From an uncultured Clostridia bacterium (lineage in GTDB: Bacteria > Bacillota > Clostridia > Lachnospirales > Anaerotignaceae): DNA of 64,000 nt. The first letter of the stretch is position 1, and every line of letters starts with the position of its first letter. Below the pieces are notes generated by a model. That model worked only from the letters and a program-made list of their open reading frames with translations. It ran no database searches and was not told where the DNA came from. A program made the translations under genes and the position numbers. The stretch covers positions 1 through 64,000 of the forward strand of contig CALWGC010000005.1 of the NCBI GenBank assembly GCA_944378105.1, read 5' to 3'. Positions 5,281 to 41,683 of the stretch are shown here, piece by piece.

Positions 5281-5883
5281 ATGAATTACTATGGAAACCC
5301 CATTACGCGACTGATTGAGGAACTGGGGAGCTTGCCCGGCATTGGTGGCAAAAGCGCCCAACGGCTGGCTTTTTATTTGATCCATCAGCCCAAAGAGCGG
5401 GTGGAGCAGTTGGCGGAAGCCATTTTGGAAGCCAGAAGCCAGGTGCAGTATTGCTCCTGTTGCTGTAACCTCACCGATGAGGACCCCTGCCCCATCTGTA
5501 GCGACCCCAGACGGGACCATACCACCATCATGGTGGTGGAAGACCCGCGGGATATGGCGGCTTATGAAAAAACAAAGGAATACCATGGCCTTTATCATGT
5601 GCTCCATGGCGCCATCAACCCCATGCTGGGTGTGGGGCCGGAGGAACTGAAGATCAAAGAATTGCTGCACCGCCTGTCGGAAAACAACACGGTGCAGGAA
5701 GTGATTTTGGCCACCAACCCCAACGTGGAAGGAGAGGCCACGGCCATGTATATCAGCCGTCTCATCAAACCAACGGGGATCCGCGTCACCCGCATTGCCA
5801 ACGGCGTGCCGGTGGGCGGCGATTTGGAATATATTGACGAAGTGACCTTGTCCCGGGCCCTGGAAGGCCGCAGGGAACTGTAA
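5281..5883 (+). CDS. recR: Recombination mediator protein RecR
   Basis: RecR, with RecO (and RecF), loads RecA on SSB-coated single-stranded DNA during gap repair. The 200-residue length is normal. Features in order: a helix-hairpin-helix ([19 protein letters not shown], about residues 13-31), a four-Cys zinc finger (CSCCCN ... CPIC, about 58-75), and a Toprim domain ([16 protein letters not shown]) followed by the GATxNP-like [16 protein letters not shown]. It lies 17 bp after ybaB and 14 bp before thyA, so all five genes from dnaX to folA are probably one operon. Confidence 0.95.
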
Positions 5884-5897
5884 AAGGAGGCAGTGTT

Positions 5898-6728
5898 TTG
5901 AGCAGAGCCGATGAAATTTTTATTGCCAACTGTCGGGATATTTTGGAAAACGGTTATTCCACCGAAGCAGAAAAAAACCGTCCCGTTTGGGACGATGGGA
6001 CACCAGCCTATACCATCAAAAAATTTGGCGTGGTTAATCGCTATGACCTTTCCAAAGAATTTCCCATCATGACCCTGCGTTACACCAACTGGAAAGCGGC
6101 CATCGACGAATTGCTTTGGATTTGGCAGAAAAAAAGCAACCGGGTGGCAGAGCTGAACAGCCATATCTGGGATGAATGGACCGGCGAAGACGGTACCATC
6201 GGCAAGGCCTATGGCTATCAGTTGGGTGTGAAGCACCAATATAAAGAAGGTTGGTTTGACCAGGTGGACCGGGTGCTTTTTGACTTGAAAGAAAACCCCT
6301 ATAGCCGCCGGATTATGACCAATATCTATAACTTTGCCGATTTGCACGAAATGAACCTGTATCCTTGTGCTTATAGCATGACCTTTAACGTGGTGGATGG
6401 CCGGTTGAATGCCATCTTAAACCAGCGTAGCCAGGATACTCTGATGGCCAATAACTGGAACGTGGTGCAGTATGCCGTTTTGGTCCATATGTTTGCCCAA
6501 GTCAGCGGCCTGAAAGTGGGCGAATTGGTCCATGTCATCAGTGATATGCATATCTATAACCGTCATGTGGACATGGTAAAAGAACTGTTGACCCGCAAAC
6601 CGTTGCCGGCCCCCACATTCACCATGAACCCCGACGTGAAAAATTTCTATGACTTTACCGTCGATGATTTCCAGATCACCGGCTATGAATATGGCCCAAG
6701 CCTGGGCAAAATCCCCGTGGCCATTTAA
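5898..6728 (+). CDS. thyA: Thymidylate synthase
   Basis: ThyA methylates dUMP to dTMP using methylene-tetrahydrofolate, producing dihydrofolate that the adjacent folA product recycles. The 276-residue protein starts at TTG 5898, 7 bp after AAAGGAGG. The active-site Cys lies in NLYPCAYSMTF and the dUMP-phosphate region in LNQRSQDTLMANNWNV; the C-terminal half has SDMHIYNRHVDMVKELL. The Cys-flanking residues (YPCAYS) and RSQD differ from the E. coli-type PPCH and RSxD context, so it is a divergent ThyA-type enzyme, not a flavin-dependent ThyX. Catalytic activity is inferred from the preserved Cys and overall layout. Confidence 0.9.
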   Translation: MSRADEIFIANCRDILENGYSTEAEKNRPVWDDGTPAYTIKKFGVVNRYDLSKEFPIMTLRYTNWKAAIDELLWIWQKKSNRVAELNSHIWDEWTGEDGTIGKAYGYQLGVKHQYKEGWFDQVDRVLFDLKENPYSRRIMTNIYNFADLHEMNLYPCAYSMTFNVVDGRLNAILNQRSQDTLMANNWNVVQYAVLVHMFAQVSGLKVGELVHVISDMHIYNRHVDMVKELLTRKPLPAPTFTMNPDVKNFYDFTVDDFQITGYEYGPSLGKIPVAI

Positions 6729-8004: not shown

Positions 8005-9381
8005 CTATGCCTCCAACAGCTTTTCACCCACCAAATACACGTCTCCTGCCCCCATAGTTATTAACATGTCGTCTGGGGATAAGGTGGATTTTAAGTAGGT
8101 AACTATTTCGTCGAAGGAAGAGAGATATTGTGCATCTTTGCCGTTGTCTTTGATTTTTTGTGCAATTTCACGGCTGTGGATCAAGCCGGTATCTTTTTCC
8201 CGGGCGGCATAAATGTCGGTGACGATGATCCGATCGGCATCGGCAAAGGCTTTGCCAAAATCCTCCAGCAGCAGTTTGGCTCTGGTGTAGGTGTGGGGCT
8301 GGAAGACACACCAAAGGGTTCCTTTGGCCACTTTTTTGGCTGCGGCCAGTGTGGCTTTGATCTCCGTTGGGTGGTGGGCATAGTCGTCGATGACTTCGGT
8401 GCCGTGGTAAACGCCTTTTTTCTGGAAACGGCGGTTGACACCATGATAGCTGTTCAGCCCCGATACAATGTCGGCTTCCTCCAATCCCAAGGTGTAGGAA
8501 GCAGCGGCGGCCGCCAAGGCATTGAGCACGTTATGGTCACCGGGGATATGCAGCTGTACCCGGCCATGGGCTTTGCCGTCGCCAATCAGTGTAAAGCTGT
8601 CTTTGCCGTCTTCTACGGCCAAGTCGGCAGGATGCCATTGGGCGTCTTCTCCCATGCCATAGGTGATGATGCGGCAGGAGAGGCCTTCGGTGATGGCAGT
8701 AAAGCCGGGGATGTCTTTGTGAATGATGAGAGCCCCTTCGGCCGGAATGTTTTGGGCAAAGGCATGAAAGGAATGTTCCACGTCGGCCAAGTCTTTGAAA
8801 AAGTCCAAGTGCTCTGCTTCCACATTCAAAATGATGCCAACCAAAGGCTGAAATTCCAGGAAACTGTTGTGATATTCACATGCTTCTGCCAAAAAGTAAT
8901 CGGAATTACCCACCCGGATATTGCCGCCAATGATGGGCAGTACGCCGCCGACGGTGATGGTGGGGTCACAATGGGCCGCCAGGAAAATGTGGCTAAGCAT
9001 GGAGGTGGTGGTGGTTTTGCCATGGGTGCCGCTGACGGCAACGGAGCGGTGATAATGGGCCATCATGGCGCCCAACAGGACAGAGCGCTCGATGGTGGGT
9101 AACTGGGCGGCCCGGGCGGCCATCAGTTCCGGATTGTCGTCTCGGATGGCTGCGGTGTATACCACCAGTTGGGTTTCGGGTAAAATATGACTGGTTTCCT
9201 GGCCATAAAAAACAGGAATCCCTAATTGTTCCAATGCATGGGTGGCCTCCGATGGCTTCATATCAGAGCCGGCCACTTGACAGCCCCAGCGTTGTAAAAT
9301 CTGAGCCAAGCCGCTCATGGAAATGCCGCCGATGCCAATAAAATAAATGTGTTTGTGGGTTGTTTGAAAATCCAGGTTCAT
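8005..9381 (-). CDS. murC: UDP-N-acetylmuramate--L-alanine ligase
   Basis: MurC adds L-alanine to UDP-MurNAc, the first residue of the peptidoglycan stem peptide, in the cytoplasm using ATP. The 458-residue protein has the Rossmann-like UDP-binding start (IYFIGIGGISMSGLA), the ATP P-loop SGTHGKTTTTSML (about residues 110-122), the EACEY segment, LNVEAEHLDFF, and the DDYAHHPTEI motif of the C-terminal ligase domain. ATG 9381 has AGAGGG 8 bp upstream; a GTG at 9390 overlaps that site. It is transcribed alone, convergent with the folA operon. Confidence 0.95.
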   Translation of the reverse strand: MNLDFQTTHKHIYFIGIGGISMSGLAQILQRWGCQVAGSDMKPSEATHALEQLGIPVFYGQETSHILPETQLVVYTAAIRDDNPELMAARAAQLPTIERSVLLGAMMAHYHRSVAVSGTHGKTTTTSMLSHIFLAAHCDPTITVGGVLPIIGGNIRVGNSDYFLAEACEYHNSFLEFQPLVGIILNVEAEHLDFFKDLADVEHSFHAFAQNIPAEGALIIHKDIPGFTAITEGLSCRIITYGMGEDAQWHPADLAVEDGKDSFTLIGDGKAHGRVQLHIPGDHNVLNALAAAAASYTLGLEEADIVSGLNSYHGVNRRFQKKGVYHGTEVIDDYAHHPTEIKATLAAAKKVAKGTLWCVFQPHTYTRAKLLLEDFGKAFADADRIIVTDIYAAREKDTGLIHSREIAQKIKDNGKDAQYLSSFDEIVTYLKSTLSPDDMLITMGAGDVYLVGEKLLEA

Positions 9382-10084
9382 TGTTTGCACCCTCTTATCC
9401 TAATTTAGTCATTACCCTTAAGTATACTATACAAAAGAAGGAAAGTCTATAACGGAAGTGTCTGCCAGGAAACAATGGCCCATGTTGTGTGCAAAAAAGG
9501 AAAGTGAAATAAAGCAAAGAGTAAGAGAAGTTTCGCTCAGGCCGAACAGAAAACAATAGAAAGGGTGATCTAAAAAGAAAAAAAGAAAAAATCAAATAAA
9601 AAAACAGAAAAAAAGAGAATCAGAATAAAATAAAGCAAAATAACTCTTTTTTTTTCGTTTTTTTTAGATTTATTTTCCTATAACAATGGAACAAAGAGGA
9701 AAAAAGTGGTTTTTTTCTCCAAGACTCCTTTCAAAAAAGGAAGAAAATTCCATTTTGTTTTTCCTCCCTTTTTTCTTTCTCCGTTTCCTCCCTGCCAAAA
9801 AAAAGAGCAAAAATGAGGGGTCAGATTCTTTTACATCCAAAAAAACAAAGAAAATATTGTGTAAAATGTATATGTAAAATATGAAAAATTGTTAAATTTT
9901 AGCAAATGGAAAAAAAACGATGCGCAATCTGTAGAAAAAAAGAAAAAATAGCTTTCATTTGAGGGCAATAGCAATAAAAAACTATTTATTCTTTGTTCTT
10001 TTTGTGATACAATATAAGGGCAAATAATTTTTAACTTTGATTGGTTCCACAGGGCACTTTTCTGTGGCAAAGGAGAGGGTTGCT
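9382..10084 (+). other. AT-rich low-complexity intergenic region
   Basis: About 700 bp between the divergent murC and glgC genes. It is built of long A- and T-rich tracts, with no credible coding frame or RNA family. Near the glgC end are TACAAT at 10005-10010, a plausible -10, and a small hairpin CCACAG ... CTGTGG just before the ribosome site. The composition differs sharply from the neighbouring ~50% GC genes. Confidence 0.6.
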
Positions 10085-28742: not shown

Positions 28743-28842
28743 AGTGAAGCCCGGGGGTGCTGCGGTTTTGTGAAAAACCGATGCTGAGAGAGTCCCTTTG
28801 AACCTGATTGGTTAGTACCAGCGCAGGAAGTGCTTGCAACAC
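28743..28842 (+). ncRNA. TPP riboswitch (THI element) aptamer
   Basis: The aptamer core is easy to read: CCCGGGGGTGC, then ATGCTGAGAG (pyrimidine-binding T-loop region), CCCTTTGAACCTGAT and GGTTAGTACCAGCGCAGGAA (pyrophosphate arm). Bound thiamine pyrophosphate should fold it and favour the downstream terminator. The four genes after it, tenA and the three ABC transporter genes, fit thiamine-precursor salvage. Confidence 0.95.
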
Positions 28843-28859
28843 GTTTTTTTGCAGTTTAC

Positions 28860-28896
28860 GACATTTCCCGCCTTTTGGGAAATGTCTTTTTTTTCG
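28860..28896 (+). terminator. Riboswitch-controlled terminator
   Basis: GACATTTCCC pairs with GGGAAATGTC followed by eight T, between the TPP aptamer and tenA. It is the expected expression platform. Confidence 0.88.
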
Positions 28897-28942
28897 CGTG
28901 GCAAACCGGCGGGCCTAAGTAGGTAAAAGGAGGTTATCACCA

Positions 28943-29602
28943 ATGAAACCATCAGAACAACTGTATGAAGCAGTCAAAGACATTTGGGCGGCCTATAACG
29001 ACCATCCCTTTGTCCAAGGCATTGCCGACGGAACGTTGGACCATGAAAAATTCCGGTTTTATATGATCCAAGATTCCCTCTATCTCCATGGCTATGCCAA
29101 AGTATTTGCCTGGGGCATGATTAAGTCCCAAACGGAGGAGGACATCCGCGCCTTTGCCGCCCTCATTTCCGGAGCCTTAAGCGAAGAGAGCGAAAACCAT
29201 CAAAAGTACATGGAAATTTTGGGCATTACCCCTGAAATCATTGCCCAAACGCCGGTGGCCCTTACCACCGAAAGCTACACCAGCTATATGTTAAAAATCG
29301 CAGCGGAAGAAGGTCCGGCCGAAATTGCCACCGCCGTGCTGGCCTGCGCCTGGAGCTATGCCCTCATTGGCGCTTATGTGGGGAAATTTACCGAAGGCAG
29401 AAAAGATCCTTTCTTTGCCCACTGGATTGATACCTATGACTCGGAAGAATACCTGCGCTGCAATGACGAAACCATCGCCCTGGTGGACCGCCTGGCCAAG
29501 GATTACACCCCGGCCCAGATGGAACACTTAACACAAATCCTCATCAATTGCAGCCGTTATGAAGCCATGTTCTGGGATATGGCCTGGAATAAGGAGATGT
29601 AA
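28943..29602 (+). CDS. tenA: TenA aminopyrimidine aminohydrolase / thiaminase II
   Basis: TenA hydrolyses aminomethyl-aminopyrimidine, a thiamine breakdown product, to the hydroxymethylpyrimidine used for thiamine synthesis. The 219-residue all-helical protein shows FRFYMIQDSLYLHGYAK near the N terminus, the catalytic Cys in AVLACAWSYALIG (about residue 135) and the C-terminal YEAMFWDMAW. AAAGGAGG lies before the ATG. Being first behind a TPP riboswitch and upstream of a pyrimidine-type ABC transporter, it supports the base-degraded-thiamine salvage route rather than simple thiaminase activity. Confidence 0.92.
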   Translation: MKPSEQLYEAVKDIWAAYNDHPFVQGIADGTLDHEKFRFYMIQDSLYLHGYAKVFAWGMIKSQTEEDIRAFAALISGALSEESENHQKYMEILGITPEIIAQTPVALTTESYTSYMLKIAAEEGPAEIATAVLACAWSYALIGAYVGKFTEGRKDPFFAHWIDTYDSEEYLRCNDETIALVDRLAKDYTPAQMEHLTQILINCSRYEAMFWDMAWNKEM

Positions 29603-29608
29603 CAAACC

Positions 29609-30358
29609 ATGTTGGAATTTCAAAATGTCACCTTCCAATATGCCGAAGATGATTATCAGATGATGAAAGACCTGTCTTTCCAGGTGGAAGAAGGCGCCTT
29701 TGTCAGCATCATTGGTGCCTCCGGCTGCGGAAAAAGCACTATTTTCCGCCTCATCAACGGTCTGGAACAGCCCCAAAGCGGCCAGATTTTTTATGACGGC
29801 AAGCCCATTTCTTCCCTCAGCCACTTTTCGGCCTATATGCCCCAAAAAGACTTGCTCTTTCCTTGGCGCACGGTGGGGCAAAACTTGGCGCTGCCGTTGG
29901 AAATTGGGCGAGTGCCCAAGGCAGAGCAGCAGCAAAAGGTGCGGGCCATGTTAAAAGAAGTGGGCCTTTCGGACTATGAAAACCGTTATCCCAAAGAGCT
30001 TTCCGGCGGCATGCGCCAGCGGGCGGCCTTTGCCCGAACGCTTTTGACGGGAAGCCGACTGCTGCTTTTGGACGAGCCGTTTTCGGCCCTGGATTCTCTG
30101 ACCAAAATCGCCCTGCAACAATGGTTGTTACAGGAATGGGAAAAATACCGCCAGACGGTGCTTTTTGTGACCCATGATGTGGAAGAGGCCATCTTCCTTT
30201 CTGACCGGGTGTTGGTGGTCTATGACCGGCCCATCACTCATCTGGAAGCATACCCCATCCCTTTGCCCCATCCCCGTAACCGGGAGGATTTGAAACGGCC
30301 GGATATGCAGGAATTAAAAGAAAAACTGATCAAAGAGTTGGGAGGCGGCAGTTTATGA
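29609..30358 (+). CDS. thiZ: ABC transporter ATPase for thiamine precursor uptake
   Basis: A 249-residue ATPase of the nitrate/sulfonate/taurine/pyrimidine class. Walker A is GASGCGKST (about residues 37-45), signature LSGGMRQRAAFAR, Walker B LLLLDEPFSALDSLT and switch His in FVTHDVEEA. It lies 6 bp after tenA and overlaps the permease gene by 4 bp. The name is by position and family in a TPP-regulated operon: ThiXYZ carries formylaminopyrimidine into the cell in Bacillus. Confidence 0.88.
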   Translation: MLEFQNVTFQYAEDDYQMMKDLSFQVEEGAFVSIIGASGCGKSTIFRLINGLEQPQSGQIFYDGKPISSLSHFSAYMPQKDLLFPWRTVGQNLALPLEIGRVPKAEQQQKVRAMLKEVGLSDYENRYPKELSGGMRQRAAFARTLLTGSRLLLLDEPFSALDSLTKIALQQWLLQEWEKYRQTVLFVTHDVEEAIFLSDRVLVVYDRPITHLEAYPIPLPHPRNREDLKRPDMQELKEKLIKELGGGSL

Positions 30359-31098
30359 AAAACAAAAATTGGCTGTCGGTGGCCGTGGTTGTGGGCATTT
30401 TGCTGTTGTGGCAAGGGGTGGCCATGATCATCAACGCCCATTATATTTTGCCTTCTCCCATTCAGATTGTGAAAAAAATTTGGGAATTAAAAGAAAATTT
30501 GTTCTTGGTGCAAATGCCGGCCACCTTAAAAGTGACGGTCATTGGCCTTGCCATTTCCATTGTGCTGGGTCTGGGTCTTGCGGTGTGGATGGATGAATGC
30601 CCGGCATTAGAAAAGGCCCTCTATCCCGTCATTGTGGCCACCCAAACCATCCCCACCACGGCCATTGCGCCTTTGTTTGTGCTCTGGTTTGGGTACAGCA
30701 TTTGGAGCAAGGTGCTGGTGACGGTGCTGATGACCTTTTTCCCCATTGCCATCACCGTTTTTGACGGGTTTAAAAGCACCAAGCGGGAAATGGAAGAACT
30801 GCTGACCACCTATGGCGCATCCAAACGGGATTTGTTTTGGAAATTGAAGCTGCCGACGGCGTTACCCAGTTTCTTTTCTGCCATCAAAATGGCCATTCCC
30901 CTCAGTGTCATTGGCGCGGCCATTGCCGAATGGCTGGGGGCCCAGGAAGGTCTGGGGTATTTCAGTAAACGAATGATGACCCAGTTGGACGGGGCCGGCG
31001 TCTTTGCGCCCATCGTCATTTTGTCGGCCATTGCCATGTTGACTGTTTTTATCATTACAAAAATCGAAGAAAAATGGATTACTTGGAGGAAAGATTGA
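30355..31098 (+). CDS. thiX: ABC transporter permease for thiamine precursor uptake
   Basis: A 247-residue inner-membrane permease with about six helices. The cytoplasmic EAA-loop that contacts the ATPase is EELLTTYGASKRDLFWKLKL (about residues 145-164), followed by PTALPSFFSAIK. It starts MKNKNWLSVAVVVGILLLW, an uncleaved signal-anchor. ATGA overlaps join it to both neighbours, so the three transporter genes are tightly coupled. Substrate is inferred from the operon. Confidence 0.88.
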   Translation: MKNKNWLSVAVVVGILLLWQGVAMIINAHYILPSPIQIVKKIWELKENLFLVQMPATLKVTVIGLAISIVLGLGLAVWMDECPALEKALYPVIVATQTIPTTAIAPLFVLWFGYSIWSKVLVTVLMTFFPIAITVFDGFKSTKREMEELLTTYGASKRDLFWKLKLPTALPSFFSAIKMAIPLSVIGAAIAEWLGAQEGLGYFSKRMMTQLDGAGVFAPIVILSAIAMLTVFIITKIEEKWITWRKD

Positions 31099-32147
31099 TG
31101 AAAAAGAGAATGTTTGCCCTGCTTTTGGGCGTCTTGCTTTGCTTTGGTGGCTGTGCTAGCCAAACCGAAAGTACCACCACGGAAGAAAACACCGAAACCA
31201 CCACCGAAGAAACGGCTGCCGCCGATGACCAGGAACTGACCCAGCTGGATTTGGTGTTGGATTGGTACCCCAATGCCGTCCATGCCTTTTTGTATGAAGC
31301 CATCGAAAAAGGTTATTTTGCAGAAGAAGGCATTGCGTTAAATATCCAGTTTCCGGCCAATACCAACGACGCCATTTCTCTGACGGCGGCAGGACAGGCC
31401 GATATTGGGATTTATTATCTCCATGACGTCATTGTGGCCTCTGTCAACCAAGGCGTGCCGGTGAAATCCATCGGCGCCGTTTGCCAACAGCCTTTGAACG
31501 TGTTTGTATCCTTGGCTGAAAAAAATATCACTTCTCCCACCGATTTGATCGGCAAAAAATTGGGTGGTTCCGGCTCGGAATTGAACGAAGCCATGGTGCG
31601 CTATATCATCGAACAGGCCGGCGGCACCGCCGACGATATTGACATTGTGGATGTGGGCTTTGATCTGATGAGCTCCATGACCACCGGCAATGTGGATGCC
31701 ACCTTGGGCTGTATGGTCAACCACGAAGTGCCTCAGTTGGAAAAAGAAGGCTTTGACGTCAATTATTTTTACCCCACCGATTTTGGGGTGCCCAATTATT
31801 ATGAAATGATTTTTGTCACCGGCGAACAACAGCTCCAAGAAGAACCGGAATTGCTGAAAGGCTTTTTGCGGGCTTGCCAAAAAGGCTTTGAAGAAATGAA
31901 GGCCCATCCAGAAGAATCGGTGGATTTGCTTTTGACCTATCAAAACGCCGATAACTTCCCGCTGGATAAAGAAGTGGAAATGCAGTCCATGTCGGTGCTT
32001 TTGCCGGCCATGGAGACGGAAGAAGCACCATTTTTGAGCCAGACAGAAGAAGTATGGGATACCAACATCGCTTGGCTCAAAGAAATTGGCATCATCGATG
32101 AGATTGTACCGGCAGATACCATCATGGTCAATTTGCTGGAAGAATAA
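31098..32147 (+). CDS. thiY: Substrate-binding lipoprotein of the thiamine-precursor ABC transporter
   Basis: A 349-residue NMT1/THI5-like binding protein. The lipoprotein signal is MKKRMFALLLGVLLCFGGC, followed by a Thr/Glu-rich linker and a mature domain starting TQLDLVLDWYPNAVHAFLYEA. The LDWYPN and GYFAEEGI parts are typical of pyrimidine-precursor (HMP or formylaminopyrimidine) binders. ATG 31098 lies after GGAGGAAAG and overlaps the permease stop by one base; upstream in-frame codons lie inside thiX. It is anchored to the outer face of the membrane and feeds ThiX. Confidence 0.88.
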   Translation: MKKRMFALLLGVLLCFGGCASQTESTTTEENTETTTEETAAADDQELTQLDLVLDWYPNAVHAFLYEAIEKGYFAEEGIALNIQFPANTNDAISLTAAGQADIGIYYLHDVIVASVNQGVPVKSIGAVCQQPLNVFVSLAEKNITSPTDLIGKKLGGSGSELNEAMVRYIIEQAGGTADDIDIVDVGFDLMSSMTTGNVDATLGCMVNHEVPQLEKEGFDVNYFYPTDFGVPNYYEMIFVTGEQQLQEEPELLKGFLRACQKGFEEMKAHPEESVDLLLTYQNADNFPLDKEVEMQSMSVLLPAMETEEAPFLSQTEEVWDTNIAWLKEIGIIDEIVPADTIMVNLLEE

Positions 32148-33657: not shown

Positions 33658-33726
33658 TATTTTTGTATATTTTGAACATTTTTTTGCAAAAAGTTGCGGA
33701 AAAAATAACGAATTTAACACTTTAAA

Positions 33727-33749
33727 CCAGTAAAAGATTGTGGTACAAT
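33727..33749 (+). promoter_or_regulatory. Putative promoter of the TRAP operon
   Basis: An extended -10 element TGGTACAAT (TACAAT at 33744-33749). The -35 position is weak (TTTAAA-like at 33721-33726). Confidence 0.5.
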
Positions 33750-33769: not shown

Positions 33770-34004
33770 AACCAAGGACGGAGAAGAAACGCAGTAGTCG
33801 GTTTTGGTGACACGCAGAGAACGGCGCAATGGGTGAAAGCGCCGCCGGACAAAATGCAGACGAATTTCCATTTTGGAGTCCCCGAAGGAAGCTTCGGCGC
33901 AGGAGCCGCGCGATATACGGCAAAGAGACATCAGCATAGATTGGTGTAAAAAAAGGTGGTACCACGGTCATTTCGTCCTTTTGCGACGAAATGACCTTTT
34001 TTTA
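33770..34004 (+). ncRNA. T-box leader, probably phenylalanine-specific
   Basis: The antiterminator T-box AAAGGTGGTACCACGG (33952-33967) is followed by a terminator GTCATTTCGTC/GACGAAATGAC with a seven-T tail. Upstream is a Stem I-like region starting GGACGG and ending GGAGTCC, with an AGTA turn and the distal GGGTGAAAGCGCC loop. Placing the specifier as in the alaS T-box of this window (GAA followed by the codon) gives TTT at 33865-33867, or TTC one base later; both are Phe. The TGGT bulge fits a tRNA with discriminator A, as tRNA-Phe has. Uncharged tRNA should switch on the TRAP genes. Confidence 0.8.
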
Positions 34005-34034
34005 TTTACTTTTTACAGGGAGGAATGGTTCTAC

Positions 34035-36023
34035 ATGAGTGAGAAAGAACAGCTTTCTTCGCCCCAAACGACGGGCATGACGGAAGCGGAGAAAAAAGCC
34101 CAAGCGCTTTTGGAGGAAAAAGAAGCAGAAATGCGGGTGCGTGTCTTTGATACAAAGGCCAACGCCATATTATCCATTTTGCTTGTCATTTGGTCTATTT
34201 TCCAGCTTTATGCCAATACCATTGGCACCATGAGTGCCATGACATTGCGGGCTTGGCATATTATGTTTTTGCTGGTATTTACGTTTTGCCTCTATCCTAC
34301 CTTCAAAAAGGAACGGAAGATGCGCAAGGCGCCACCCATTTGGGACTTTGTGTTGGCCGGGTTATCCATTGCCGTTTATGGGTATATGATTAAAAATTAT
34401 ACGGCCATTGCCCTGCGGGGTGGGTATTTGGAGACCATCGACTATATCGTAGCCGGTATTGGCATTGTGCTGGTGTTTGAAGCGGCGCGCCGGGCCTGCG
34501 GCAGTTTGGCCGTGCTGGCGCTGGTATTTTTGGCCTATAACTTCTTGGGCCCATTGATTCCAGGGGAGCTGGGACATACCGGGTTTCCATTAAGCCGGGT
34601 GCTTTCCCATATGTTCTGGGGCAGCCAAGGGATTTTTGGCGTCGGCATTGGGGTCAGCGCCACCTATATTTTCCTGTTTGTGGTCTTTGGTGCTTTCTTG
34701 AAATACAGCGGTTTTAGCCAGTTTATCAACGACTTGGCCTTAACGCTGGTGGGCAGAAGCCCCGGCGGCCCAGCCAAAGTGGCCGTCATTGCCAGTGCCT
34801 TGCTGGGTATGATTAACGGTAGCGCCATCGCCAACGTGGCTACCACCGGTACCATCACCATCCCCTTGATGAAACAGACCGGTTATAAGGCAGAATTTGC
34901 GGCAGCCGTAGAAGCCGTTGCTTCCACCGGCGGCCAGTTTGCCCCACCCATCATGGGGGCCGTGGGCTTTGTGATGGCAGAATTCCTTGGCGTTAGCTAT
35001 ACAAAAGTCATGATTGCTGCTGCCATTCCCGCCTTTTTGTATTACTTAACGCTGTTGTTTTCGGTGCACTTTGAAGCAAAGAAATTGGGCCTGAAAGGTC
35101 TTTCCAAAGAAAACATTCCAGACGCGTTGGTGGTGTTAAAAACAAGAGGTCACCTGATTTTACCTTTGGTGGTGCTGATGGTGATGATGTTTATGGGTTA
35201 TACACCGTTATATGCGGCTGTGGCTGCCATTTTTGCCACCGTCATCGCTTCTTGGTTTCGAAAAGAAACGAGAATGTATCCAACCACCATTTTGCAGGCT
35301 ACCGTCGAAGGGGCCAGAGGCGCCATCAGCGTTGGCGTTAGCTGTGTCATCATCGGTGTCATCATCGGTACCGTTTCTTTGACCGGTTTGGGGTTAAACT
35401 TTGGTTATATTGTGCTGCGGGTGGTTGGCGAAGGCCAGTTGCTTTTGGGCGGCTTGATGGTAATGATTATGAGCACCATTTTGGGCATGGGCGTGCCAGG
35501 TGTGGCCGCTTATGTCATTGTGGCGGCTGTGGCTGTGCCGGTACTGCAAAACGTGGGTGCCATCCCCATGTCGGCCCATATGTTCTGCTTGATTTATGCT
35601 TGCCTTTCCAACATTACGCCACCGGTTGCCATGAGTAGCTATGTGGCCAGCGGCATTGCCGATTCCAACCAGACCAAAACGTCCCTCATTGCCGTGAAAT
35701 TAGGGTTGACCGGCTTTATTTTGCCTTTCTTCTTCCTCAATAACCCGGTGCTTTTGATTGGTACCGTGGAAGGTATTGGCGCCTTGGAAACGCTGCAGGC
35801 CTTTGTGACGGCAAGCCTTGGTGTCATTGCTTTGTCGGCGGCGCTGCAGGGTATGATGTTGAAAAAATGCAATATCGTCGAACGGGTCATTTTGTTGGCC
35901 GCCGCTGTGTTAGCCATTGATCCGGGCACCATTACAGACTTGTTGGCTGTGGCCGGGTTTGTGCTGGTACTGATTTTCCAAAAAGTAACGATGATGCGGC
36001 AAAAAGCCACCGTTTCGGAATAA
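34035..36023 (+). CDS. TRAP transporter fused permease (4TM/12TM)
   Basis: This 662-residue membrane protein joins the small DctQ-like and large DctM-like TRAP subunits in one chain, with a hydrophilic N terminus (residues 1-45) and about 16 helices. Conserved stretches include GMINGSAIANVATTGTITIPLMK, TGGQFAPPIMGAVGFVMAEF and GMGVPGVAAYVIVAAVAVPVLQ. It uses an ion gradient, usually sodium, with a TAXI receptor encoded next (28 bp). ATG 34035 follows GGGAGGAATGG. The T-box upstream ties it to amino acid starvation. The substrate is unknown; related TAXI systems carry dicarboxylates or amino/oxo acids. Confidence 0.9.
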   Translation: MSEKEQLSSPQTTGMTEAEKKAQALLEEKEAEMRVRVFDTKANAILSILLVIWSIFQLYANTIGTMSAMTLRAWHIMFLLVFTFCLYPTFKKERKMRKAPPIWDFVLAGLSIAVYGYMIKNYTAIALRGGYLETIDYIVAGIGIVLVFEAARRACGSLAVLALVFLAYNFLGPLIPGELGHTGFPLSRVLSHMFWGSQGIFGVGIGVSATYIFLFVVFGAFLKYSGFSQFINDLALTLVGRSPGGPAKVAVIASALLGMINGSAIANVATTGTITIPLMKQTGYKAEFAAAVEAVASTGGQFAPPIMGAVGFVMAEFLGVSYTKVMIAAAIPAFLYYLTLLFSVHFEAKKLGLKGLSKENIPDALVVLKTRGHLILPLVVLMVMMFMGYTPLYAAVAAIFATVIASWFRKETRMYPTTILQATVEGARGAISVGVSCVIIGVIIGTVSLTGLGLNFGYIVLRVVGEGQLLLGGLMVMIMSTILGMGVPGVAAYVIVAAVAVPVLQNVGAIPMSAHMFCLIYACLSNITPPVAMSSYVASGIADSNQTKTSLIAVKLGLTGFILPFFFLNNPVLLIGTVEGIGALETLQAFVTASLGVIALSAALQGMMLKKCNIVERVILLAAAVLAIDPGTITDLLAVAGFVLVLIFQKVTMMRQKATVSE

Positions 36024-36051
36024 CAAAAGAGTGAAAAGGAGAGAGGAATTT

Positions 36052-37104
36052 ATGAAACGACTTGTAACGATGCTGGCGATTTTGACCATGGGGGTATCAC
36101 TGCTTTCCGGCTGTGCTTCCACCACCCAAGAAGGGGCCAGCGAAGGTGCAACGGAAAGCACCGAAAGCACCGAAACGGCCACAGAAGGCGAAGAAACTGC
36201 TTCCGCCTCCGGCGATGTGGTGACCATCAACTTCCCAACGGCTGCCACCACTGGCGCCGTATATCCACTGGGCAGCGCCATTGCCAACCTTTGGAACACC
36301 CAATTGGATAACGTGCGCGCCAGCGCGCAAGCCTCCAACGGCGGCGTGGAAAACTTGAACCTCATTGCCGACGGCCAGGCGCAAATGGGTGTGGCTGTGA
36401 CCAGTATCATGTATGAATCTTACCATGGCACTGGCACCTTTGAAGGCCGCCCCAACGAAGATCTGCGGGTTTTGGCCGGACTTTACTATAATCCAAACCA
36501 GGTAGTTGTCAGCGAAGAAAGCGGCATCACCTCTCTTTCGGAACTGAAAGGCAAAAACTTTGCCCCAGGCTCTGCCGGTGGTACCAGTGAAGTGGAAACC
36601 AGAATCCACCTGACGGCCCTTGGCATGAATTATCCCGATGACATCAAAGCCCAGTTTGTAGGCTTCACCGAAGCCACTGACTTGCTGCGCAATAAACAGT
36701 TGGACGGCGCTTGGATCATGGCCGGTGTGCCGACGGCAGCCGTAACGGAAATCACCTCCACCGCCGGCGGGAAACTCATCGGTATGGATGAAAGCTTGAT
36801 TGAACAGTTGAAAGAAGAATATCCTTGGTATGCCGAATACACCATTCCTGCTGGCACCTATGACGGTCAGGACGAAGATATTTTGACTTCTGCCATCAAA
36901 ATTACCCTTTGCACCACCGCCGATTTGGATGCCGATACGGTGTATAACCTGACCAAAACCTTCTGGGAAAACATCGATACCTTGGCAGAAACCAACAGCG
37001 TGTTAAAAGGGGTAACGGTGGAAGATGCTGTGACCGACTTGGCCGGACTGCCACTGCATGAAGGGGCAGAACGCTACTACAAAGAAATTGGCGTGTTGGA
37101 ATAA
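36052..37104 (+). CDS. TAXI-family TRAP transporter receptor lipoprotein
   Basis: A 350-residue binding protein, the extracytoplasmic partner of the fused permease upstream. The signal MKRLVTMLAILTMGVSLLSGC carries a lipobox, so in this monoderm-type cell it is lipid-anchored. A Thr/Glu/Ser-rich linker leads into the TAXI domain: NFPTAATTGAVYPLGSAIA, then RASAQASNGGVENLNLI and GKNFAPGSAGGTSEVETR. ATG 36052 follows AGAGAGGAA. The ligand-binding site cannot be assigned to a compound from sequence. Confidence 0.88.
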   Translation: MKRLVTMLAILTMGVSLLSGCASTTQEGASEGATESTESTETATEGEETASASGDVVTINFPTAATTGAVYPLGSAIANLWNTQLDNVRASAQASNGGVENLNLIADGQAQMGVAVTSIMYESYHGTGTFEGRPNEDLRVLAGLYYNPNQVVVSEESGITSLSELKGKNFAPGSAGGTSEVETRIHLTALGMNYPDDIKAQFVGFTEATDLLRNKQLDGAWIMAGVPTAAVTEITSTAGGKLIGMDESLIEQLKEEYPWYAEYTIPAGTYDGQDEDILTSAIKITLCTTADLDADTVYNLTKTFWENIDTLAETNSVLKGVTVEDAVTDLAGLPLHEGAERYYKEIGVLE

Positions 37105-37128
37105 ACCGACAGAAAGGGAGATTGTTCC

Positions 37129-38100
37129 ATGATTCAAATTGGTTTGACCGGGGTCTACTTTGACGGCGCCAAAAAGGCGTTGATGGAAAACGTGCCAGAA
37201 GGCTATGAAATCACCTTTGTAAACGGCCCCGAAGAATATGACAAGCTGGCCCATGTAAGCTATATCATCAACCGTCTGGCGGTGGATTCCCAAATTTTTT
37301 ATGCCGCCAAGGAACTGAAGCTGTTGCAAAAATGGGGCGCAGGCTTTGACGATTGTGACATTCGTCTGGCCGGCAGTTTGGGCATCCCTGTGGCCAACTG
37401 CCCCGGCGTCAACTCCCGCCCGGTGGCGGAGCTGGCCCTGATGCATATGCTCAGTGTCTATCGAAACCTCATTGCTATCAATCGCAATTTGAAAGAAGGC
37501 AAATGGCCCAAGAGCGAATTTTTTGGCCGCTCTTACATGATCTACGGCAAAACCGTAGGTATCGTGGGCTTGGGCAACATTGGGAAAAAAGTGGCCCAGA
37601 TGGTGACGGCTTTGGGCGCCCATGTGCAGTATTATGACATTGTGCGCCAGTGGGAGCAGGAAGCCCAGTTTGGCTATGACTTTGTGCCCTTTGAACAGCT
37701 GATTCAAACGTCGGACATCATTTCCATCCATTGCCCGCAAAAAGAGGATACCATCGACATGTTCTCCGATGCGGAATTTGCCCAGATGAAGAAAACAGCC
37801 GTTTTGATTAACACCGCCCGTGGCCCCATCGTCAACCAAGACGCCTTGTTAAAAGCCTTGACCACGGGGCAGATTTTGGGGGCCGGCATGGATAACTTCA
37901 ATGAAGAACCCCTGCCTGCCAACCATCCGTTGCTGCTGTTGCCCAATGTGTCGGCCACGGCCCACGCCGGTGGCAACACGGCCGATAACGACATCAACAT
38001 GGTGCAATATTGCTACAGCAATATTGTGAACTTTGAAAATGGCCGCCCCTTCAACAGTGAACGAGATTTGCTCAATGCCCAATATTTGGTGAAAAAATAA
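37129..38100 (+). CDS. D-isomer-specific 2-hydroxyacid dehydrogenase
   Basis: The 323-residue NAD(P)-dependent enzyme interconverts 2-oxoacids and D-2-hydroxyacids in the cytoplasm. The nucleotide-binding motif is VGIVGLGNIGKKVAQ (about residues 139-153). The catalytic Arg, Glu and His should lie in LINTARGPIVNQ, FNEEPLP and ATAHAGGNT; the last differs from the usual TPHxGG. It follows the TRAP receptor by 24 bp and is closed by a terminator at 38125, so it belongs to the T-box operon. The cargo may be a 2-oxo or 2-hydroxy acid that this enzyme converts, e.g. phenylpyruvate/phenyllactate; this is inference. Confidence 0.85.
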   Translation: MIQIGLTGVYFDGAKKALMENVPEGYEITFVNGPEEYDKLAHVSYIINRLAVDSQIFYAAKELKLLQKWGAGFDDCDIRLAGSLGIPVANCPGVNSRPVAELALMHMLSVYRNLIAINRNLKEGKWPKSEFFGRSYMIYGKTVGIVGLGNIGKKVAQMVTALGAHVQYYDIVRQWEQEAQFGYDFVPFEQLIQTSDIISIHCPQKEDTIDMFSDAEFAQMKKTAVLINTARGPIVNQDALLKALTTGQILGAGMDNFNEEPLPANHPLLLLPNVSATAHAGGNTADNDINMVQYCYSNIVNFENGRPFNSERDLLNAQYLVKK

Positions 38101-38124
38101 AAAAACTTCGTTTTTTCAAAAAAG

Positions 38125-38166
38125 ATAGCAGGAAATCCTGAAAAAAGGATTCCTGCTATTTTATTT
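38125..38166 (+). terminator. Terminator of the T-box/TRAP operon
   Basis: ATAGCAGGAAATCCT pairs with AGGATTCCTGCTAT followed by TTTATTTTTT. It belongs to the recurrent GCAGGAATCC hairpin type. Confidence 0.8.
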
Positions 38167-38356: not shown

Positions 38357-39067
38357 TTGGAAAAAATCGAAGTGACCAGTTTAAATACATTGGTCTATCA
38401 GTCGTTGAAACAGCAGATCATGGAAAACCGTCTTCGGCCCAAGGAGCGGTTAGAAATCGGCGCTTTGGCCCAAGCCCTTGGAGTCAGCAAAACGCCGGTA
38501 TTAAACGCGTTAAAGGCATTGGAAAAAGACGGTTATGTGGAAATACGCCAGCGCAGCGGCACCTTTGTGCGCAGCCACACCCCCGAAGAGGTGGAGGCCA
38601 TTTTCCGGTTTCGCTTGGCACTGGAAAAAGAAGCGGCGGCGCTGACCATAGGGGCTTTGACCGAAGCAGACATCGCGCCCATCGAAGCAGGGCTTTTGGC
38701 GCAAAAAGTTATGTTTTTGCAGGAGCAGGAAGCAGGCGATGTGGAGGCCTTTTTTTGTTTGGAGGAACAGCTGCACCAGCTATGGGTGGGCCGATGCCCG
38801 GCCATTGTGCGGGGAGAGCTGGAGAATTTGGTGGATTTGACCAAGCGGCTGCGGCGGCTACAGCTGTCGGACTGCTTGGAACAAAAAGGAAAAAAGGCAT
38901 TTTTGGATCAGGAAATGGATGTGCATTTGGCCATGATTGCTGCCGTGCGAAGGAAGGACTTATCTGGGCTTCAGGCGGCCTTGGAGCAGGATGTGACCAC
39001 CACGTGCAGGCAGATTTTGGCAGGCGGAAGGGAGGAACGGACAGATGGAAGCAGTATTACACAGTGA
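38357..39067 (+). CDS. GntR-family regulator with FCD ligand domain
   Basis: The 236-residue protein has an N-terminal winged helix (about residues 8-75: LVYQSLKQQIMENRLRPKERL, LAQALGVSKTPVLNALKALEKDGYVEI) and a helical FCD effector domain (about 82-220). FCD members usually sense carboxylic acids through a metal-held site. It starts at TTG 38357 after AAAAGGAGCG. Its 3' end overlaps the aminotransferase gene by 23 bp, so it very likely controls this three-gene operon, whose products handle an amino or hydroxy acid. The effector is unknown. Confidence 0.88.
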   Translation: MEKIEVTSLNTLVYQSLKQQIMENRLRPKERLEIGALAQALGVSKTPVLNALKALEKDGYVEIRQRSGTFVRSHTPEEVEAIFRFRLALEKEAAALTIGALTEADIAPIEAGLLAQKVMFLQEQEAGDVEAFFCLEEQLHQLWVGRCPAIVRGELENLVDLTKRLRRLQLSDCLEQKGKKAFLDQEMDVHLAMIAAVRRKDLSGLQAALEQDVTTTCRQILAGGREERTDGSSITQ

Positions 39068-40376
39068 GCTGAAAAAGAAATATCCCGTTGTAGACCATGC
39101 CGAGGGCATGTATGTCTATGACACGGCAGGAAACCGTTATTTGGATTGTGCCGCCGGCATTGCCGTGGCCAACATTGGCCACAGCGTTCCGGAAGTGTTA
39201 CAGGCCATGGAAGTGCAGATGAAAAAAACCACCTTTGCCTATGGTGGTACCTTCACCAGCGAGGCCAGAGAGCGCCTGGCCCAACAGATCATTGCCATGG
39301 CCCCCAAGGGGATGAGCCGGGTGTTTTTCTGCTCCGGCGGGTCGGAGGCCATGGAGTCGGTGATTAAAATTGCCAGACAGTATCAGTTGGAGCGGGGTTG
39401 CCCCTCCAAATATAAAATCATCTCCCGTTGGCAAAGCTATCACGGCAATACCATTGCCACCTTGGCCATGGGCGGGCGCCCTTCCTGGCGGGAGGCCTTT
39501 GACGCCTGTATGCCAAAGGCTTGCCATATTGCCCCTTGCAACTGCTATCGCTGTCCTTTTGGGCTTGCCTATGGCAGTTGTGGATTGCAATGCGCCAAAG
39601 AACTAGAACGGACCATTTTGTATGAAGGAGCCGATACCATTGCGGCCTTTGTGCTGGAGCCTGTCATTGGCACAACGGCGGCGGCTGCGATCCCTCCGGC
39701 AGACTATATCCAGGAAGTCAAACGCATTTGCGAAGCCTATGATATTTTGTTTTGTGTGGATGAAGTGATCACCGGCTTTGGCCGCACCGGCAAAAACTTT
39801 GCCGTGGACCATTTTGGCATCACGCCGGATATCATGGGGGTGGCCAAGGGTCTGGGCTGTGGTTATATGCCCATGGGGGCGGCCATTGTCCATGAAAAAA
39901 TCGTTGCGGCCATGGAAGCAGGCAGCGGCCAAGGCGGCCATTTATTCACCTTTGCGGCCAACCCCTTAGCCTGTGCAGCGGCCAGTGCGGCCATGACCTA
40001 TTTACAGGAACACCATTTGGTGGAGCGGTGTGCCAAGATGGGCGCACTGTTCTTAGAAAAACTGAAAACCTTAGAAACCTTGCCTTTCGTGGGCCAGGTG
40101 CGGGGCATCGGCATGATGTATGGCGTGGAATTTGTGGCAGACAAAGAAACCAAGGCGCCTTTGCCCAATGAAGTGGCCATCTCCAGCCGGGTGGCAGCCT
40201 ATTGCTTTAGCCATGGGCTGATGGTGACTGCCGGCGTGCAAGGCTGTGCCGATGGCCGCCATGGCGAGGCCATGCAGATTGCGCCACCTTTTATCATCAC
40301 CGAAGAAGAGATGGACTTTGTGGTTTCCACCTTGCAGGAGGCCATTTTGGCTGTGGCAGAGGAGGTACAAAAATGA
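39045..40376 (+). CDS. Class III PLP-dependent aminotransferase
   Basis: The 443-residue protein is an omega-aminotransferase/4-aminobutyrate-type enzyme, transferring an amino group from an amine or omega-amino acid to a 2-oxoacid. It has the N-terminal GNRYLDCAAGIAVANIGH, SGGSEAMESVIKIARQY for PLP phosphate binding, CVDEVITGFGRTGK and the PLP-Lys in GVAKGLGCGYMPMG (about residue 267). A Cys cluster CNCYRCPFGLAYGSC (about 165-180) is shared with a clostridial subgroup and may bind metal. GGGAGGAAC precedes the ATG. Substrate not determined; the partner LarA-like gene suggests a branched or hydroxy-acid pathway. Confidence 0.87.
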   Translation: MEAVLHSELKKKYPVVDHAEGMYVYDTAGNRYLDCAAGIAVANIGHSVPEVLQAMEVQMKKTTFAYGGTFTSEARERLAQQIIAMAPKGMSRVFFCSGGSEAMESVIKIARQYQLERGCPSKYKIISRWQSYHGNTIATLAMGGRPSWREAFDACMPKACHIAPCNCYRCPFGLAYGSCGLQCAKELERTILYEGADTIAAFVLEPVIGTTAAAAIPPADYIQEVKRICEAYDILFCVDEVITGFGRTGKNFAVDHFGITPDIMGVAKGLGCGYMPMGAAIVHEKIVAAMEAGSGQGGHLFTFAANPLACAAASAAMTYLQEHHLVERCAKMGALFLEKLKTLETLPFVGQVRGIGMMYGVEFVADKETKAPLPNEVAISSRVAAYCFSHGLMVTAGVQGCADGRHGEAMQIAPPFIITEEEMDFVVSTLQEAILAVAEEVQK

Positions 40377-41683
40377 TTTATTCGTTGCAAGAAGAAAACG
40401 GCTTTGCCGTATACCGGGATTTGGATGAAAACAGAACCATTTCCATTCCCAAAGACCATTGCATGGGACTTTTTGAAGCCGGGGACCCACCGGCGGTCAA
40501 AGGAAAAAGCGTCTATCTGGAAGCCCTTTGCCAGCCGGAAGACGGCCTGCCGCTTCGGACATTGGCCGAGATGAAAAAAGCCAAAACGGCGGCCGTCATC
40601 ATCTCCGACATCACCCGACAGGTACCCACGGCCAAAGTGGCGCCCCAGTTGGTGGAAGAGCTGGTGGCAGGGGGCGTGCCCTTATCGGGGATTACGTTTT
40701 TTGTGGCCCTGGGGGTACACCGGCCGGCCACGGAAGAAGAAATGCGCCTTTTTTTGGGCGAGGAACTCTATGGCAAAGTGGCCATCGAAAACCACGAACC
40801 CTATGACGAAGCGGCGCTGATCGACCTGGGCGTTACCCAGCGGGGTACACCGGTCAAAGTCAACAAAAAAGCCTATCTTTGCGATATCAAAATCACCATC
40901 GGGAAAGTGGAGTTGCACGAAATGGCCGGTTTTTCCGGCGGCAGAAAATCCATCCTGCCCGGCGTTTCTTCCGAAGAAACCATCCTGGTCAACCATCGCC
41001 CGGAAATGATTTTTTCTCCCGGCACCGGGGCCGGAAAATTGGAAGAAAACCCCATCCATGAGGATATGCTGGAAACGGCCAAGCTATTTGGCGTTCATTT
41101 TTCCATCAATTTTGTGGTCAATAACAGCGGGGAAGTGGCCGGGGTCTTTGGCGGCTCCCTAGAAGGCAGCCACCGGGCCGCCGTGGCCTTTTTGCGCCGC
41201 TTTGTGGATGTGAAACTGCCAAAGGCGCCGGATATTGCCGTCATTTGCCCAGGCCAGCCTCTCAGCTGCGATTTATATCAGGGCGTCAAAGCCCTCATTG
41301 CCATGCAGCATGTGCTGCGGCCCGACACGGTGGTGGTGCTCTATGGCGCCTTTCCGGAAGGCATGAACTCCGTGGATTTTCCAAAGCCGCTGCAATTGTT
41401 TGAGGACCTGGACGAGGCCAAGGCCTATACCATTGCCAACTATCGGATTCAAATGGATCACACTTTGCCAATAATAGACTTGCTAAAAAGAGAAATTCGC
41501 GTTATAGTATGTACAGAGGGAGTTTCGGCGACGGAAATTCGACAAATCCGAATGTCCCCCGTGCCCAAACTGGACGAGGCGCTGCAGCAGGCCTATACCC
41601 TCTGCGGCAAGGCAAAGCCTCAAGTGGCATTTTGCCCACACCCTCAAAAGGCTGTGCTGACCTTGGCAGAGCCAAAAGAATAA
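40373..41683 (+). CDS. LarA-like nickel-pincer racemase/epimerase family protein (DUF2088)
   Basis: LarA enzymes use a nickel-pincer nucleotide to racemise lactate or epimerise other 2-hydroxy acids. The 436-residue homologue retains SDITRQVPT, the active-site His in FVALGVHRPAT, and HEMAGFSGGRKSILPG (about residues 181-196), with the His and the Lys that holds the pincer cofactor in lactate racemase. The pincer-synthesis genes larB, larC and larE are not in the window. ATGA overlap with the aminotransferase shows translational coupling. Homologues act on several hydroxy acids or sugars, so the substrate may be a 2-hydroxyacid other than lactate. Confidence 0.8.
   Translation: MIYSLQEENGFAVYRDLDENRTISIPKDHCMGLFEAGDPPAVKGKSVYLEALCQPEDGLPLRTLAEMKKAKTAAVIISDITRQVPTAKVAPQLVEELVAGGVPLSGITFFVALGVHRPATEEEMRLFLGEELYGKVAIENHEPYDEAALIDLGVTQRGTPVKVNKKAYLCDIKITIGKVELHEMAGFSGGRKSILPGVSSEETILVNHRPEMIFSPGTGAGKLEENPIHEDMLETAKLFGVHFSINFVVNNSGEVAGVFGGSLEGSHRAAVAFLRRFVDVKLPKAPDIAVICPGQPLSCDLYQGVKALIAMQHVLRPDTVVVLYGAFPEGMNSVDFPKPLQLFEDLDEAKAYTIANYRIQMDHTLPIIDLLKREIRVIVCTEGVSATEIRQIRMSPVPKLDEALQQAYTLCGKAKPQVAFCPHPQKAVLTLAEPKE

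Follow-up and report, generated by a model that had tools for sequence, protein, structure and literature searches.

What does a TAXI-type TRAP transporter carry when its operon lies behind a T-box leader RNA? The question is raised by a locus in 64,000 nucleotides of DNA from an uncultured Clostridia bacterium of the family Anaerotignaceae (GenBank assembly GCA_944378105.1, contig CALWGC010000005.1, positions 1 to 64,000; hereafter the window), in which a T-box precedes genes for a fused TRAP permease, a TAXI-type receptor and a D-2-hydroxyacid dehydrogenase (HADH). The leader is a complete transcriptional T-box with all motifs, and control of the operon by tRNA-Phe is strongly supported by sequence comparison. 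The module of T-box, permease, receptor and HADH was found in four genera: that of the window, two others of its family (genomes G016 and G459) and one from another class (G1079). The transported compound would best be read as an aromatic 2-oxo or 2-hydroxy acid.

Leader and operon

The elements of the leader and the operon are the following.
33772-33983 (+), T-box leader from Stem I to antiterminator; RF00230 match and orthologous leaders in G016, G459 and G1079
33793-33796 (+), AGUA, 5' side of the specifier-loop E-motif; from the sequence, in agreement with the Rfam consensus
33815-33820 (+), CAGAGA (AG-bulge motif) of Stem I, followed by the apical element GGUGAAAG; Rfam alignment
33862-33864 (+), GAA, 3' side of the specifier-loop E-motif; Rfam alignment
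33866-33868 (+), predicted specifier UUC (Phe); UUC in all four orthologues, GAA-N-UUC layout of the pheST leaders of the family
33867-33869 (+), rival Ser frame UCC, one base later than UUC
33953-33980 (+), antiterminator core AAGG-UGGUACC...CCUU; Rfam alignment
33957-33960 (+), UGGU bulge; Rfam alignment, UGGU in all four Phe-type leaders
33966-34003 (+), intrinsic terminator of 12 pairs and a T run; stem 33966-33996, then T7
34035-36023 (+), fused TRAP permease; TIGR02123 TRAP_fused, 620.5 bits (cut-off 320.65), and DctM PF06808
36052-37104 (+), TAXI-type receptor with a lipoprotein-like N terminus and a non-glutamate pocket; TIGR02122 TRAP_TAXI, 286.9 bits (cut-off 84.35)
37129-38100 (+), HADH; Pfam PF02826/PF00389

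The leader matches RF00230 with 75.9 bits (E-value of 9e-17 in the whole genome and 7.8e-17 in a local search), which falls under the Rfam gathering score of 93. Such a score is normal for this organism, because T-boxes elsewhere in the same genome score likewise (alaS 79.1, tyrS 72.0, cysE 74.0, serC 86.2 and thrS 62.6 bits). The genome holds 14 T-boxes, belonging to valS, leuA, leuS, pheST, ileS, trpB, glyS, trpE, serC, alaS, cysE, tyrS, thrS and the TRAP operon, with gene names assigned by reading the translations. On its contig C19 (95296-96006), two divergent T-boxes stand back to back, one before serC-serA (UCC, UGGC) and one before a TrpB-like gene (UGG, UGGC).

Stem I of the window leader contains the apical element GGUGAAA in the Rfam alignment. 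Unconstrained minimum free energy folding of Stem I alone recovered no T-box fold, and Rfam and comparative alignments were therefore used for this part. The terminator (−21.5 kcal/mol and z-score of −6.0 on folding) is mutually exclusive with the antiterminator pairing AAGG..UGGUACC..CCUU, and terminator stems are retained in the orthologous leaders despite changes in their sequence. A preliminary description, made from the window sequence alone, had placed a T-box antiterminator and terminator directly before the fused permease and had proposed a covariance-model search as a check. The RF00230 match and the exclusive 12-pair terminator bear it out, and the receptor and HADH that it described as accompanying the permease are recovered by their family matches, separated from the preceding gene by 28 bp (permease to receptor) and 24 bp (receptor to HADH).

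Specifier and tRNA

On the 3' side of GAA, the window loop reads U-UUC-CA and then enters the lower helix (UUUU). The codon is UUC (Phe) if its position is taken relative to GAA, and UCC (Ser) if it is taken relative to that helix, the default in TBDB. The orthologous leaders read GAA-U-UUC-GG (G016), GAA-G-UUC-GG (G459) and CAA-G-UUC-AC (G1079). The codon one base after the GAA position is UUC in all four Phe-type leaders, and the later frame yields UCC, UCG, UCG and UCA in the window, G016, G459 and G1079, all of them Ser codons. The codon immediately after GAA (UUU, UUU and GUU in the window, G016 and G459) was excluded as the specifier because G459 reads GUU there.

Comparison with other T-boxes of the family favours the Phe frame. 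In the Val, Leu, Phe, Cys and Trp T-boxes, the codon follows GAA directly or after one base, with CUC or CUG immediately 3' of GAA in the Leu T-boxes. The pheST T-boxes have UGGU in 26 of 26 cases, and nearly all are arranged as GAA-N-UUC; they share with the window leader the AGUA/GAA loop, the position of UUC and the bulge, and differ from the transporter leaders in that the lower helix of the latter starts one base farther from the codon. The serC T-boxes lack the AGUA/GAA pair that the transporter leaders keep, having no GAA in the loop, and have UGGC in 11 of 11 cases, against UGGU in all four transporter leaders. Within the window's own genome, tRNA-Phe has A73, which the UGGU bulge matches, whereas tRNA-Ser (three species seen) and tRNA-Trp have G73. 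The bulge is not proof of Phe, because the trpE T-box of the same genome (contig C15) has UGGU although tRNA-Trp has G73; TBDB reports a Trp wobble exception of this kind (PMC7778990). In the same database, UUC makes up 99% of Phe specifiers, and UCG and UCA are rare among Ser specifiers (3% and 6%; PMC7778990). Moreover, the two bases that follow UUC can pair with the opposite strand in G016 (U-G, U-G) and G459 (C-G, C-G), so that the third base of a Ser codon would sit in the helix.

The specifier is thus very probably that of Phe, although the serC T-box of the same genome, UUCCAUUUU, is nearly identical to the window leader in its 3' strand. The preliminary description had read either TTT or TTC after GAA; the TTC alternative stands and the TTT alternative falls. 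Its pairing of the TGGT bulge with discriminator A agrees with A73 of tRNA-Phe, and its proposal of tRNA-Phe control gains from the invariant UUC and the shared pheST layout. It had also looked to a fold of Stem I to fix the specifier. Here the alignment points to UUC, while the UCC frame, which that description had not seen, also fits.

Relatives, receptor and dehydrogenase

In the receptor tree, the sequences encoded behind Phe T-boxes group together in a single clade with support of 98/99. Orthologous TAXI-TRAP operons in G168 and G1058 lie behind Tyr-type T-boxes (109.1 and 91.9 bits, respectively), in which the loop reads GAA-UAC-A before the helix and the bulge is UGGU. The operon behind the G168 T-box (5806-6010, −) is without a dehydrogenase, and its close relative G042 is without a T-box. 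The T-box of G1058 (8440-8710, −) is situated 66 bases downstream of a prephenate dehydratase gene (8776-9609, −; PF00800, 190 bits), the gene directly upstream of it, and a DUF362 gene follows the receptor gene. No T-box was detected upstream of the orthologues in G042, G1071, G089, G424, Mailhella and Synergistaceae, where the upstream DNA could be scanned. Since Phe-type, Tyr-type and T-box-less orthologues all occur in the transporter clade, aromatic T-boxes would have been gained, or their specifier changed, more than once. The Mailhella (Desulfovibrionaceae) orthologues have the same pocket and no T-box, and may be a sign of horizontal transfer of the transporter. A plasmid search returned weak permease matches only.

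The congener G001 was not counted as an independent orthologue, as its leader and receptor on contig C93 are near-identical to those of the window. A second copy of the operon region, on contig C32 of this metagenome assembly, is 94–98% identical, and the two copies probably represent mixed strains.

The receptor matches the glutamate receptors VcGluP and TtGluBP (1US4/1US5) with E-values of 1e-45 to 1e-46. In VcGluP, Y45, Q93 and E125 bind the amino group of the ligand, and S75 and G156 bind its carboxylate (PMC11574862). Mapped onto VcGluP by sequence alignment, the window receptor has V45, V93, N125 and G75 in place of the glutamate-type residues. Across 14 receptors of its clade, the residue is V or L at position 45, V or I at 93, N at 125, G at 75, and T or S at 156; in seven glutamate-like paralogues from the relatives and in the two solved glutamate receptors, these positions are Y, Q, E, S and G, respectively, where they could be aligned. 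V45 is present in all four Phe-type receptors and in the Tyr-type receptor of G1058, and L45 in most others. Because the VcGluP ligand residues are replaced, the clade should not bind glutamate in the known manner. Its pocket is predicted to be more hydrophobic, which suggests alteration to suit a ligand without an amino group.

The dehydrogenase retains the active-site Arg, Glu and His, and an Asp after the second strand (YYD) as in NAD-type members; TARG, the Glu of xEP and TAHA are conserved in all four aligned HADH proteins. It scores below every curated equivalog cut-off, with phosphoglycerate dehydrogenase and glyoxylate reductase as the nearest models. Against the SerA equivalog TIGR01327 it reaches 221 (cut-off 454), and the Arg-Ser motif described for SerA (PMC6303947) is missing, NRL/TRL being read by eye in its place. 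At an E-value of 1e-60 or lower, it was found in 5 of 392 genomes of the order, namely the window genome, its congener, G016, G459 and one remote match of 36%; at 1e-65 or lower, none of 391 genomes of the class had it besides the window genome. The G1079 operon encodes a homologue at 55%. None was seen beside T-box-less or Tyr-type orthologues, some of these loci being cut by contig ends. The distribution suggests that the dehydrogenase is tied to the four Phe-type operons only.

Two further elements flank the operon.
33721-33749 (+), promoter-like TTTAAA-17-TACAAT; consensus scan, 9/12, with TG before the −10 element
~38124-38165 (+), inverted repeat ATAGCAGGAA..TTCCTGCTAT followed by T-rich sequence; read from the sequence, not in the terminator scan listing

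The promoter-like site is a weak match, with ~0.6 expected by chance and similar sites in shuffled sequences. The inverted repeat probably marks the end of the operon. Beyond it (38357-41683, +) are genes for a GntR-FCD regulator, a class III aminotransferase and a LarA-like nickel racemase, all scoring below the curated equivalog cut-offs, in an arrangement seen in this genus only. They were rejected as parts of the module, being absent from the G016, G459 and G1079 loci and lying behind the probable terminator. Elsewhere in the window (28743-32147, +), a thiamine pyrophosphate riboswitch (54.5 bits) precedes an ABC transporter with an NMT1/THI5-like binding protein, which probably serves uptake of a thiamine precursor.

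Substrate and physiological role

In the mechanism that we somewhat favour as a whole, uncharged tRNA-Phe would pair with the leader at both UUC and the UGGU bulge, so that the antiterminator would form and permease, receptor and HADH would be transcribed; with charged tRNA-Phe, the terminator would form. The receptor and the fused permease would take up an aromatic 2-oxo or 2-hydroxy acid lacking an amino group, with phenylpyruvate and/or D-phenyllactate as the likeliest candidates. Oxidation of the D-hydroxy acid by the NAD-linked HADH would yield phenylpyruvate, and an ordinary aromatic aminotransferase would convert phenylpyruvate to phenylalanine. The Tyr-type sister operons, which have no dehydrogenase, would take up a related compound at tyrosine shortage. 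The sister Phe and Tyr T-boxes, the link of HADH to the Phe-type operons and the lost amino-group residues make phenylpyruvate or D-phenyllactate the best reading. They lend substance to the proposal of the preliminary description, made without sight of the Tyr-controlled relatives, that the system takes up a precursor or breakdown product of phenylalanine; the substrate itself is still a prediction.

Several points weigh against this mechanism. The Ser frame fits the specifier loop in all four leaders and is formally admissible. The T-box-less orthologues of G042, G1071, Mailhella, G089 and G424 share the pocket, and the substrate need not be linked to Phe or Tyr everywhere. The closest relatives of the HADH in sequence are phosphoglycerate dehydrogenases and glyoxylate reductases, and most characterized enzymes of its superfamily operate as reductases (PMC6303947). 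Finally, the window genome has a prephenate dehydratase, as do G001 and G016 (G459 was outside the sample), and probably makes phenylalanine, for which the importer would be non-essential. Phe auxotrophy was therefore rejected as the reason for the importer; with the dehydratase retained, uptake would be scavenging that spares biosynthesis rather than rescue of an auxotroph.

It is unlikely, though worth keeping in view, that the aromatic T-boxes govern import of an earlier or side precursor, such as shikimate, quinate, prephenate, or arylacetates that anaerobes can carboxylate to arylpyruvates. A common precursor is suggested by the occurrence of Phe and Tyr T-boxes on one clade, one member of which lies directly behind prephenate dehydratase, and TAXI systems count an o-phthalate transporter among them (PMC12344293). 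Such a substrate leaves the HADH in the Phe operons unexplained, and a hydrophobic pocket (V/L, V/I, I, M) poorly suits a polyhydroxylated ring.

Import of the aromatic amino acids themselves, with HADH handling a transamination product, is a little harder to sustain. For most T-box-controlled transporters, the presumed substrate is the amino acid named by the specifier (PMC2494555), and amino acid binding is known in TAXI receptors, with glutamate as the ligand (PMC11574862). Against this, the side chains that hold the amino group in VcGluP are replaced throughout the clade, and a D-2-hydroxyacid dehydrogenase is fixed in the Phe operons.

An ordinary TAXI system under an aromatic T-box by chance, with HADH acting on 2-hydroxyglutarate, is improbable. 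Glutamate, 2-oxoglutarate or 2-hydroxyglutarate, and o-phthalate are the known TAXI ligands (PMC11574862, PMC12344293), but the glutamate pocket is lost in the clade and kept in paralogues, and Phe and Tyr T-boxes on separate branches speak against chance. Least probable is an operon for serine supply under a UCN specifier, for example by D-glycerate import and oxidation to hydroxypyruvate, to which the phosphoglycerate dehydrogenase-like sequence of HADH would lend itself, as the bulge, the loop motif and the rarity of the Ser codons required disfavour it, as do the UAC sister operons, the prephenate dehydratase neighbour of one of them and the HADH without the SerA Arg-Ser motif.

The aryl-acid transporter proposed here has partial counterparts among known systems. 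The T-box-controlled transporters surveyed by Wels et al. (2008, PMC2494555) belong to seven families (MFS, APC, NSS, DAACS, LIVCS, NhaC and ABC), and TRAP is not among them. The NSS transporters under a Phe T-box in the Bacillus cereus group and the NhaC-type transporters under Tyr T-boxes (PMC2494555) likewise have an aromatic-specifier T-box before a transporter gene and transcriptional antitermination; the window system differs from them in being a receptor-dependent TRAP transporter, in a receptor without the known amino-group ligands and in the co-transcribed hydroxyacid dehydrogenase. The TAXI-TRAP systems for 2-oxoglutarate/2-hydroxyglutarate (Proteus mirabilis) and o-phthalate (Azoarcus) likewise handle non-amino oxo, hydroxy or aromatic acids, and T-box control is not mentioned for them (as cited in PMC12344293). 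The TAXI-TRAP glutamate systems VcGluP and TtGluBP belong to the same receptor family as the window receptor, in whose clade all five VcGluP residues named above are replaced. To our knowledge, no T-box occurs on these glutamate systems. In agreement with the preliminary description, which knew of no TAXI system with such control, a literature search, which did not include the Vitreschak 2008 and Gutierrez-Preciado 2009 surveys, found no paper joining a T-box with TAXI or TRAP-type transporters. T-boxes and TAXI-TRAP families are both known; their joint occurrence appears to be new, as do the pattern of Phe and Tyr specifiers over the receptor tree and the link of HADH to the Phe operons.

Ligands are known for very few of the widespread TAXI-TRAP systems. 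Because a T-box reports which amino acid must run short for its genes to be expressed, it serves as an in-genome label of the substrate class; the labels seen here, Phe for one clade and Tyr for two further lineages, together with the altered pocket, give a short, testable list of ligands. We tentatively propose an undescribed TAXI-TRAP branch for aryl-2-oxo and aryl-2-hydroxy acids (phenylpyruvate, phenyllactate and perhaps 4-hydroxyphenylpyruvate), induced through T-boxes by Phe or Tyr starvation in at least two classes, the Phe branch of which, with its dedicated HADH, may salvage microbial fermentation products to phenylalanine. If this is true, bacteria of anaerobic communities would recapture the aryl-lactates and aryl-pyruvates excreted by their neighbours, under the control of tRNA charging.

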